The position numbers and the translations under genes were made by a program. Shown here piece after piece: positions 5,079 to 8,253 of a stretch of DNA of 58,091 bases. A model generated the notes under the pieces. It was not told where the DNA came from and searched no databases. It saw only the letters and a list, made by a program, of their open reading frames with translations. The DNA comes from Hyphococcus sp. (lineage in GTDB: Bacteria; Pseudomonadota; Alphaproteobacteria; Caulobacterales; Parvularculaceae). Numbering within the stretch: position 1 is the first letter of the stretch; every line of letters begins with the position of its first letter. The stretch is taken from positions 1 through 58,091 of the forward strand of contig JANQON010000015.1 of the NCBI GenBank assembly GCA_028289605.1. The letters are read 5' to 3'.

Positions 5079-6419
5079 TTACTCGGCCGGACGCAGTGCG
5101 CCGCCGCCGTTGAAATCCGGCCAGGCAGGCGCGCCGACCTCAGAGTCGTCCAAGCCTTTTTCCTCATCGTCGGCGCTGGCGCGTATGCCGATAACGATCT
5201 TGAGGAAGAACCAGATGACTAGGCTGGCGGAGAATACGAACACGCCGTTCGCCGCAATCCCGATCGCTTGACCCAGGAAGCTGGCGTCGGAATTGGTCAC
5301 CGGTACGACGATCGTTCCCCAGATGCCGCAAAAGAGGTGCGCAGGGATTGCGCCGACGACATCGTCTATCCGCAGCGCCTCAAGCATCGGCATGGTGACG
5401 AAGATGATGACGCCGCCGACGGAGCCGATCAACGCCGCCTGCCAGACGGCGGGGGTGAGGGGCTCAGCGGTGATCGCCACAAGGCCGCCGATGGCGCCGT
5501 TGAGCGCCATTGAAAGATCGATCTTGCGTTTGAGCAGCGTGCACAGAACAACAACGGTTATGACGCCCATGGCGGCGGCCATGTTGGTATTGACGAAAAT
5601 GTTCGACACCGAGATTGCGTCGTCGAGCGAACCGAGCGCCAGCTGTGAACCGCCGTTGAAACCGAACCAGCCAAGCCAGAGAATGAATACGCCAAGCGTC
5701 GCCAGCGGAAGGCTGGAGCCGCGAAGTTGATTGATTTTGCCGTCGGGACCGTACTTGCCGCGGCGCGGCCCGAGCGCAATGGCGCCGGCGAGCGCTGCCC
5801 ATCCGCCGGTTGCGTGGACCAGCGTTGAACCGGCGAAATCAGAAAACCCGTATCGCGCGTCGAGCCAGCCGCCGCCCCATTCCCAGGACGCCTGAATGGG
5901 ATAGATCAGGCCGGTCAGGAGTGCGGTGAAGATAAAGAACGGCCACAACCGAACGCGTTCGGCGACCGTTCCCGACACGATGGACGCAGCCGTCGCTACA
6001 AACACCATCTGAAAAAACCAGTCCGAAGCAGCCGAATACCCTGTCTCAAGCGCGGTGGAATCGTCCGCCGACCACATTTTCAACGTGCCGATCCAGCCGC
6101 CTTCCTCAACGCCATAGATGATGTTGTAGCCAATAAGCCAAACCATCACGGTGGCAATTGAGAAGAGGGTAATATTCTTCAGGCAAATCGTGGCGGCGTT
6201 TTTGGAACGCACAAGACCGGCTTCCAGCATGCAAAAGCCGGCGGCCATGAACATGACAACCATGCCCATAATCAGGAAAAGCATGGTGTTAAACACAAAC
6301 GTCGTATCGGGCGCCGGGCTCGTTGTCGCCGCCGCCGCGTCCTGGGCGAAAGCCGTTCCCGCCACCGCCGCGCCCGCCGTCAACAAAGCTAGAAAGCCGT
6401 TTGTTATTCTTTGTCTCAT
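5079..6419 (-). CDS. amtB: ammonium transporter
   Basis: A 446-residue Amt/Rh-family channel with a cleavable signal peptide (cut near GTAFA-Q) and about eleven membrane helices. The family signature DFAGSTLVHATGG includes the first pore histidine, and AHLFCGIWGT contains the second, so the twin-His pore is intact. The N-terminal region ends FMAAGFCMLEAGLVRSKN, which is highly conserved. The cytoplasmic tail is short and acidic (ADDEEKGLDDSEVG). ATG at 6419 has a GAGGGG upstream and is preferred over the ATG at 6440. No glnK gene adjoins it, although amtB is usually paired with a PII gene. A 299-bp AT-rich region upstream probably holds its promoter. Confidence 0.95.
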   Translation of the reverse strand: MRQRITNGFLALLTAGAAVAGTAFAQDAAAATTSPAPDTTFVFNTMLFLIMGMVVMFMAAGFCMLEAGLVRSKNAATICLKNITLFSIATVMVWLIGYNIIYGVEEGGWIGTLKMWSADDSTALETGYSAASDWFFQMVFVATAASIVSGTVAERVRLWPFFIFTALLTGLIYPIQASWEWGGGWLDARYGFSDFAGSTLVHATGGWAALAGAIALGPRRGKYGPDGKINQLRGSSLPLATLGVFILWLGWFGFNGGSQLALGSLDDAISVSNIFVNTNMAAAMGVITVVVLCTLLKRKIDLSMALNGAIGGLVAITAEPLTPAVWQAALIGSVGGVIIFVTMPMLEALRIDDVVGAIPAHLFCGIWGTIVVPVTNSDASFLGQAIGIAANGVFVFSASLVIWFFLKIVIGIRASADDEEKGLDDSEVGAPAWPDFNGGGALRPAE

Positions 6420-6519
6420 AGACCCCTCGTTCAGCTGCAACCGCGGCGCTCAATGTCCGCGGCTCATTTATTTTTGTCCGTCGCCGGATGAAGTCAGCGG
6501 AACGATGACAAGTTTTTTC

Positions 6520-6553
6520 TTGCAACGCAACATAGAAATAATTTTTGTTGCAA
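6520..6553. promoter_or_regulatory. inverted repeat in the amtB upstream region
   Basis: TTGCAAC (6520-6526) and GTTGCAA (6547-6553) form a perfect 7-bp inverted repeat in the AT-rich 299-bp gap between amtB (minus) and the divergent small membrane protein gene (plus). It could be an operator for either gene. No sigma-54 site was found by eye. Confidence 0.3.
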
Positions 6554-6718
6554 TATCCCGCTACAGAAGTAATTATGTACAGCGGAAACGGCATACATAT
6601 TCCACAAAGACGCGATATTATGTCAATTTTGGGGTAAGGAGATGCTGCGCTTGCGCTGTTTCGGCGCCCGGCGACCGCCGGCTGAGAGCGCGGCTCCAGG
6701 CAATGGCTGAGGGGGCCA

Positions 6719-7012
6719 ATGGACGAACAACAAGTCGCTGCGCTGCTGGTGAACGACGTGCAGACGCATTTCGCATGGTTTCAGTTCGCCGTCATCTTCA
6801 TCGCGCTTGCGTTGATACTGGTGTCGGTCGCGCTCGCCAGCCGCGCCTATGCGGCGCTCAGCGAGGCGCGCATTCTGTTCTATCGCGCAAGCGAGCGCGA
6901 CGATGGGGCTGTCGGCGCACGGCTGTCAGGGCGGGTCGCCACCTCTGAAACCATTAACGCCGCATCCCGGGCGCGAAAAGTCCGTACACGTCGGGGACGA
7001 ACGATTCCGTGA
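6719..7012 (+). CDS. small single-pass membrane protein, unknown function
   Basis: A 97-residue protein that is not recognised as a named family. A single hydrophobic helix spans about residues 19-45 (FQFAVIFIALALILVSVALA). A basic C-terminal tail ends in RARKVRTRRGR, which by the positive-inside rule puts the C-terminus in the cytoplasm. The stop TGA overlaps the GTG start of the next gene (GTGA), so the two genes are translationally coupled and the products may interact. The region just upstream of the ATG is GAGGGGGCC, a good ribosome-binding site. Confidence 0.65.
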   Translation: MDEQQVAALLVNDVQTHFAWFQFAVIFIALALILVSVALASRAYAALSEARILFYRASERDDGAVGARLSGRVATSETINAASRARKVRTRRGRTIP

Positions 7013-8253
7013 ATGAGTCTCCGCATCCGCCGCGCATATCTTACTGCGGCGATCAGCGATCGGGCGGGGCGCTGGCGTTTGACGCTTTGAAAATACTTAT
7101 GGCCGCTGACAGCAGTTCGCGCGGAACGGCATTCGACTGGGCTGAAGCCGCGCCAGCGCCATGCGACACCGACGCTATGGCGATGCTCGCGCTGTCCGAA
7201 AAGAAAAGCGATTTCGCATTGCTTCCCTTCATCCAGGACAATGGCGCCTATGATGAATTGGCGTTGCATGATCTCAACAGTTTGTTCGACATCGTCGCGA
7301 CAGGCATTATCAACATCACAGAAGACTATTGCCTCGTGGCGCGAAAAGACGACGTCGCCGCGGTGCGCTATCAAAGAGCAGGGGCCACGCCTCCGATCCG
7401 CGCCGTATTTACAACGCAGCGCGGCGAAAAAGCTTGCCGGTCCGCCCTCGAGGGCCTGGCGGCGAACGGCGCTTCGGTGTCGTTGGTGACATCCTCCCAT
7501 GCAGCCGGTGCTGCGACTGTCGCGATTGACCGGTCTCGTTCCCCAAATAATGCGATCGGCGACCTTCATGCGGCCATCATGCCCAAGCACCTGGTTGCCC
7601 AGAATTCTCGCTATGAGATCCTGCGCGATAACCTAACCGAGCGACGTTGCCGACGTTTCCTGCTGGTTCTGCAACGCGCCGCGGACAAGTCAGTCTATTT
7701 CGATAAATACAGAACCACTGACGCGCGAACGCGATACTTTTATCGACGTATGAAGCGTCTGCGCGCGGAGAGCCATCATCCACAGGGACTGGGCGTTATC
7801 CTTCGGTTTAAACGCAGCGCCGCCGCCGCCGCAACGAGCGACGTGGAAGCGTTCTTGCGCCGCTATGGCGTTCGCTATGCGGTGTTTGACTTGCCGAACC
7901 GCGACAACACCGGCGCCCCGGCGCCGCGAATTCTTGATATTGAATTTGACGCGCGGGACTTCTCCTATAATCCCGCCCGCCGGCTTCGCGGATCCGTCGC
8001 CAACGGCGCATTGAAGCGCGCTTTCGCCAGATGGAAAGACCGCGGCGTACAGGTTGTCGGCGCTATGCCGCTCGACCAATTCCGAATGCGTAGACCCCGG
8101 CAGCGACGATGGTGGTGGGAAGGCGCAGCTTCGGTCGCCGGCGACGCGGTCGACACGTTGTTCATCCGGCTATCACGATTGTTGTTCGGCGCGCTTGCGA
8201 TCACGCTTTTCGCGGCGCTTGTCGTCGGCGGCGTTTGGTTCTTCGCAGTCTAG
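7009..8253 (+). CDS. membrane-anchored, degenerate prephenate-dehydratase-like (PDT + ACT) protein
   Basis: A 414-residue protein. By its pattern of secondary structure and motifs it reads as a diverged PheA. An N-terminal SYCGDQRSGGALAFDA replaces the usual GPxGTFSxxA. DFALLPFIQDNGAYDE matches the G-V-V-P-I-E-N-S strand-loop. NITEDYCLVAR matches the I-x-x-E-x-x-L-x-I region. A second lobe ends DNLTERRCRRFLLV, where the family has D-x-x-x-N-x-TRF. The catalytic Thr of TRF is Arg here, so dehydratase activity is unlikely. Residues about 260-360 resemble the ACT regulatory domain and end VQVVGAMPLDQF, like VKVLGSYP. A C-terminal helix (about 392-412) then anchors it in the membrane. It starts at GTG 7009, coupled to the preceding small membrane protein. 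The fold assignment is inference from pattern matching. Confidence 0.6.
   Translation: MNESPHPPRISYCGDQRSGGALAFDALKILMAADSSSRGTAFDWAEAAPAPCDTDAMAMLALSEKKSDFALLPFIQDNGAYDELALHDLNSLFDIVATGIINITEDYCLVARKDDVAAVRYQRAGATPPIRAVFTTQRGEKACRSALEGLAANGASVSLVTSSHAAGAATVAIDRSRSPNNAIGDLHAAIMPKHLVAQNSRYEILRDNLTERRCRRFLLVLQRAADKSVYFDKYRTTDARTRYFYRRMKRLRAESHHPQGLGVILRFKRSAAAAATSDVEAFLRRYGVRYAVFDLPNRDNTGAPAPRILDIEFDARDFSYNPARRLRGSVANGALKRAFARWKDRGVQVVGAMPLDQFRMRRPRQRRWWWEGAASVAGDAVDTLFIRLSRLLFGALAITLFAALVVGGVWFFAV

Follow-up and report, generated by a model that had tools for sequence, protein, structure and literature searches.

The closest described relatives of the protein discussed here are the prephenate dehydratases (PDTs) of the PheA type (PF00800; PDB 3mwb, 2qmx and 2qmw). 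It shares with them the predicted PDT + ACT fold, the order of the elements and a residual profile similarity in the PDT part, and differs from them by a hydrophobic tail, the loss of the catalytic Thr and other motifs, the linker motif DKYRTTDARTRYF and the absence of the LESY and PAALYKA motifs. A PDT relative with a second use is GqqA of Komagataeibacter europaeus (PDB 7am0), which is known for acyl-homoserine-lactone (AHL) acylase activity and is said to retain PDT activity and to bind L-Phe at the ACT interface (PMC8192741). Going by this paper, the PDT scaffold can gain another use, since that of GqqA did. The likeness to our protein is confined to the PDT-ACT fold: the protein studied here lacks the catalytic motifs and has a probable membrane tail. 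By gene position, an analogy can be drawn with PII/GlnK, which regulates Amt: in both cases the product of a gene next to an ammonium transporter may be a regulator in the cytoplasm, yet the folds are unrelated. Finally, long PDT-like paralogues encoded near hslU, hypothetical proteins of Parvularculaceae, share with our protein the family, the linker, the ACT-like half and the tail, and differ from it in their length (622-648 aa in the intact genus rows, with fragment L015 and open-ended L022 left out), a two-helix insert, a retained TRF and conserved motifs of their own. In open-licence PMC literature, searched by titles and abstract starts, neither this family nor any tethered PDT-like protein was found described, in line with the earlier note, which knew of no such system. 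The fold is known; the architecture, a probably tethered PDT-ACT protein devoid of the motifs, is new to us.

The window, i.e., the whole stretch of 58,091 nucleotides that was analysed, is contig C7 of the Hyphococcus sp. genome G000 (4.29 Mb in 19 contigs). The features of the locus are as follows.

5079..6440, minus strand: divergent marine-subtype ammonium transporter gene (amt), the second copy over the cut-off in the genome (TIGR03644, 578.9 bits, cut-off 514)
6441..6718, no strand: common upstream region of amt and the small gene, with GCAACA/TGTTGC elements at 6527-6532 and 6546-6551
6719..7012, plus strand: 97-aa single-pass membrane protein, GTGA overlap (7009-7012) with the PDT-like gene (ORF, hydrophobicity, homologues)
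7009..8253, plus strand: probably tail-anchored, PDT-ACT-like putative pseudoenzyme, short paralogue, 414 aa, GTG start (ORF, predicted fold, profile comparison)
7030..7683, plus strand: PDT-like (PBP-II-type) region, residues 8-225, catalytic motifs eroded (hhalign, clade identity, TRF site)
7684..7782, plus strand: linker with motif DKYRTTDARTRYF, residues 226-258, common to the long paralogues (60.0% mean identity in the short clade)
7783..8082, plus strand: ACT-like beta-alpha-beta-beta-alpha-beta region, residues 259-358 (predicted secondary structure, structural alignments)
8155..8250, plus strand: C-terminal hydrophobic helix, residues 383-414, probable tail anchor (Kyte-Doolittle, predicted helix)

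Taken alone, the 414-aa protein gave no matches in Pfam, NCBIfam and PDB sequence searches, and it stays below the curated cut-off of PF00800, with no family assigned by the Pfam search. Its orthologue in the related genome G001 (192 of 403 aligned residues identical) comes closer to PF00800 (E 0.0015, 18.8 bits, under the cut-off of 25.2, profile positions 23-164), and the long paralogue of its own genome (631 aa, contig C16) passes that cut-off with 26.3 bits; the same paralogue matches NCBIfam PRK11898 at 9.4e-5, far under that model's cut-off. For the profile comparison, 29 genuine PDTs of the bacterial family were used (31 found, two too short left out). Against these, hhalign gave the six short members by themselves 41.4, the 24-row alignment A2 71.0, and alignment A1, in which the short six are joined by a near-duplicate and by P0126 of the long type, 58.5. 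The maxima of column shuffles (60 per alignment) were 27.3, 26.4 and 27.8, respectively, and reversed-alignment controls gave 14.4-14.9. When the A2 profile, which holds no genuine PDT, was run against 288 other genomes of the class, full-length matches were absent and 12 weak partial ones appeared (E 2.1e-6 to 9.6e-4); all five of these that were inspected are PheA-type PDT-ACT proteins by motif. The predicted structure of the 414-aa protein has a PDT + ACT fold: the best 12 PDB chains in Foldseek are PDTs or PDT relatives, and the structural alignments extend to residue 359. The predicted fold of the long paralogue is also PDT-ACT. The 414-aa protein is homologous to PDT, as becomes visible through its relatives, profile-profile comparison and predicted fold; this bears out the PDT kinship and, at the level of the predicted fold, the ACT domain that the earlier note read from motif order. 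PADLOC returned no match for the 414-aa protein, the 97-aa protein or the long paralogue. Besides the PDT-like genes, G000 has a genuine PDT gene (PF00800, 187.5 bits), so the 414-aa protein would be dispensable for the PDT step.

In regard to the active site, motifs of the GEPGAFS, PIENS, RSHAMALGQ, GDTAGAA and NTTRF types are preserved in the bacterial family's genuine PDTs, the last reading NTTRF in 28 of the 29 and NVTRF in the remaining one; we take its Thr to be catalytic. In the 414-aa protein the GxxGxFS and PxENS cleft motifs are missing, with GDQRSGGALA and LPFIQDNGAYD in their places, and Thr is absent from the TRF site in all six distinct short members, which read RRF, RWM, RWF, KWV, YYF and similar. 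The alignment at this site is ambiguous by one position within the short clade, and of the CRRF reading proposed earlier the loss of Thr stands while the exact residue is not alignable. The loss holds for the short members and not for the long paralogues, where TRF is retained in 127 of 134 distinct rows; it is also present in two of six remote rows, which come from other genera and were treated separately. The PDT part of the long paralogues carries motifs of its own that hardly vary (GEExGFGYQA, PFYxPYxGYD and FAGPEAARRCKSK), and in the short clade both these and the old PDT motifs are lost or eroded.

These observations bear on whether the 414-aa protein could still be an enzyme with a changed reaction, as in GqqA. 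The GqqA structures (7am0) are among its top structural matches, and new, nearly invariant motifs in the long paralogues are what a repurposed active or binding site would leave; since the short clade has lost or eroded those motifs as well as TRF, we regard this as decidedly unlikely for the window protein. Along the protein, mean identity within the short clade (six rows) rises from 34.5% for the PDT part to 60.0% for the linker and 65.5% for the ACT part and falls to 42.6% for the tail; within the long rows the values are, in the same order, 78.7%, 70.9%, 78.4% and 63.2%, computed from pairs among the first 60 of 132 long rows, near-copies included. Such ACT-biased conservation alone does not prove that enzymatic use was lost, because the 29 genuine PheA proteins of the bacterial family show the same bias (ACT 83.6%, PDT 67.3%). 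Nor does the motif loss prove inactivity, because GqqA, according to the same paper, keeps only two of four catalytic positions and yet complementation implies PDT activity (PMC8192741). Judging from the motifs, we infer that the 414-aa protein would be without enzymatic activity.

A paralogue decaying without function would also show a weakly conserved PDT half, and the short form is rare: it was found in two of 62 genomes of the bacterial family (G000 and G001) with the long protein as query, and in two of the 36 family genomes among 60 relatives with the window protein as query. Against decay, the differences between G000 and G001 are distributed over codon positions as 151/140/258 across 403 codons of the 414-aa gene and as 36/24/59 across 93 codons of the 97-aa gene. 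Such a bias suggests that the protein sequences encoded by the two genes are under constraint. In addition, the GTGA overlap is kept, the reading frame is full-length in six divergent members, and the linker and the ACT-like part are conserved. A decaying gene, set aside on the codon-position bias, is thus very improbable.

The ACT-like half can be called ACT by its predicted fold only. The model has modest confidence there (pLDDT mostly 60-70), and comparison of this part with genuine PheA ACT domains revealed no profile similarity, with hhalign at 10.4 and shuffles reaching 17.6. The 414-aa protein also lacks LESY and PAALYKA, motifs found in genuine PheA proteins of the family and presumably the Phe-binding ones of the ACT domain. 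Phenylalanine sensing, which the earlier note had put forward, is unsupported at the sequence level, and the missing profile match to genuine ACT domains led us to lower that reading.

At the C-terminus, residues 383-414 are hydrophobic (Kyte-Doolittle peak 2.47 in a 19-residue window), within a region modelled as a helix from residue 368 to 413. A C-terminal stretch above 1.6 is present in 21 of the 24 A2 rows, the exceptions being L041, L042 and L043, and all four long members of the genus in A2 have two further hydrophobic stretches between the PDT and ACT parts, which form the two-helix insert mentioned above. The helix noticed earlier probably anchors the 414-aa protein in the membrane, in which case its folded part would lie on the cytoplasmic face of the inner membrane.

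The open reading frames of the two window genes, with 97 and 414 codons, are exactly those given in the earlier note, and their GTGA overlap recurs in G001 (L102 3400-3687 and 3684-4898), the one relative with readable DNA. The 97-aa protein is hydrophobic at residues 14-48 (Kyte-Doolittle peak 2.86); it reached no Pfam family over the cut-off (best Clc-like, E 0.048, 13.6 bits vs 24.9) and had no NCBIfam match. A search for its homologues gave four clusters, itself included, with members in eight of 62 genomes, all of the same genus. In all eight, the small gene adjoins a marine-type amt over the TIGR03644 cut-off and diverges from it, and only in G000 and G001 does the PDT-like gene follow. 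In G001 an etfA-like gene comes next after the PDT-like gene, and in G018 the amt-small-etfA order of G001 is found on one contig with the PDT-like gene missing. Because the small gene stands beside amt in eight of eight genomes and the PDT-like gene in only two, the small protein belongs with the second ammonium transporter, and the PDT-like gene is an optional addition. The fixed two-gene unit supposed earlier is contradicted by the six genomes with the small gene alone. As for the proposed neighbours, amt is common to G000 and G001, and the mazG linkage was dropped, as G001 carries the etfA-like gene there.

The shared upstream regions offer a separate observation. In the eight amt-small intergenic regions there are 14 GCAACA/TGTTGC elements against about 1.2 expected from simple base shuffles, in related genomes and with a motif chosen after the sequences had been inspected; a shared operator is only a lead suggested by these sequences. 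Sigma-54- and NtrC-type patterns had no match in the same eight regions. Elsewhere in the genome, the other marine-type amt over the cut-off (G000:C17:141785-142969) has a P-II match about 150 bases away.

The gene order suggests that the 414-aa protein, together with the 97-aa protein, might bind Amt and tune it to amino-acid status in place of PII/GlnK. In favour of such a partnership, the small gene lies next to, and divergent from, a marine-type amt in every one of its eight genomes, amt is the neighbour at both loci where the DNA around a short form can be read, and of the four P-II (PF00543) matches in G000 one is close to the other marine-type amt and none is on the window contig. The 414-aa protein itself, having no Pfam family, carries no P-II domain match. 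On the other side, the PDT-like gene is present at only two of eight amt-small loci, G018 has the same gene order without it, and the much commoner long paralogue is near hslU and not amt. An Amt link resting on two loci is possible but weak, and we consider binding and tuning of Amt by the 414-aa protein unlikely. The more specific proposal, that a second amt without an adjacent PII gene is controlled by a tethered pseudoenzyme and a single-pass partner, is improbable; if true, amino-acid status and ammonium uptake would be coupled in a new way.

The long form is far more widespread. A search with the long protein gives a match at E <= 0.001 in 56 of the bacterial family's 62 genomes, matches in several other genera being partial and weak. 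In a profile search across the order, which scored only the best candidates per genome, 29 of 150 genomes match, all of them among the 31 genomes listed for this family; the other 119 genomes of the order (18 listed from other families, 101 not listed) gave no match. The context was inspected in 18 loci, i.e., that of the own genome and 17 chosen among matching genomes, with neighbours such as hslU, hslV, Smr, Tim44-like, SecB and etfA recognised by eye and so taken to be what their labels say. All 18 contain the PDT-like gene; in 17 of them hslU precedes it on the same strand, and in 15 the PDT-like gene is followed by a convergent Smr-type gene. The gap to hslU is within 0.4 kb in 13 loci, and a single gene lies between in two more.

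This arrangement could mean that the long and short proteins alike are connected with HslUV proteolysis, acting perhaps as an adaptor or a regulator bound to the membrane. The same-strand position directly downstream of hslU in most loci agrees with it. However, of the three loci of genus g2, two have hslU 1.5 or 3.4 kb away and one has none in the stretch, the copy in the window lies away from hslVU, and adjacency alone is weak evidence. The HslUV link concerns the long form, and as an account of the whole family it has little probability.

A family of PDT-ACT-like proteins of about 450-650 aa, mostly with a hydrophobic C-terminal tail, can be recognised in L032 10149-12044 (G000:C16) and L035-L051. 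Among the 120 homologues listed, most are without a source name, and the named ones are mostly "hypothetical protein"; two are called prephenate dehydratase though several known motifs are replaced in the family. The source names include Hyphococcus, Marinicaulis, Amphiplicatus and Parvularculaceae, and four named records from the contig scan belong to Parvularculaceae MAGs and Amphiplicatus metriothermophilus; of the four loci from that scan, L092, the G001 record, is the one with a short member. Further short-type proteins form clusters P0122-P0125 and P0127, of which P0124 is nearly identical to the G001 protein; DNA context is readable for the G000 and G001 members, and P0122, P0123, P0125 and P0127 are known as proteins. 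In a midpoint-rooted tree of 49 rows, the six short rows group together apart from the long ones with a support of 100/100, although the tool warned of long branches meeting, that of the short clade among them. As such branches may produce an artefact, the single origin of the short clade and the age of the short/long split are unsure. The 414-aa protein is the rarer, more eroded paralogue within this mostly tail-anchored PDT-like family.

Taking the above together, we give about an even chance to the 414-aa protein being a non-catalytic, membrane-tethered PDT-ACT descendant that acts as a regulatory or scaffold subunit. Its C-terminal helix would hold it on the inner membrane, facing the cytoplasm; its PDT half would be free of catalytic residues and diverging, and its job would most likely lie in the linker and the ACT-like half, because these stay more conserved; that job could be pairing, and possibly a ligand-gated contact with a membrane partner. 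Pairing is made plausible by GqqA, whose ACT domains are described as pairing across the dimer (PMC8192741), and we infer both the pairing and the regulatory or scaffold role. The likeliest partners would be the full-length paralogue encoded behind hslU, which has the linker and the ACT-like half in common with it, and the co-translated 97-aa membrane protein.

The proteins described here point to an undescribed family of mostly tail-anchored PDT-ACT proteins, so far from one bacterial family, in which a scaffold of phenylalanine synthesis appears to have been repurposed. They also include a second paralogue, encoded next to an ammonium transporter gene, that has lost the active-site motifs entirely. 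Members occur in marine bacteria, including some named species, which makes these proposals testable, and if the sensor reading holds, the family would tie a membrane process to amino-acid pools in a new manner.
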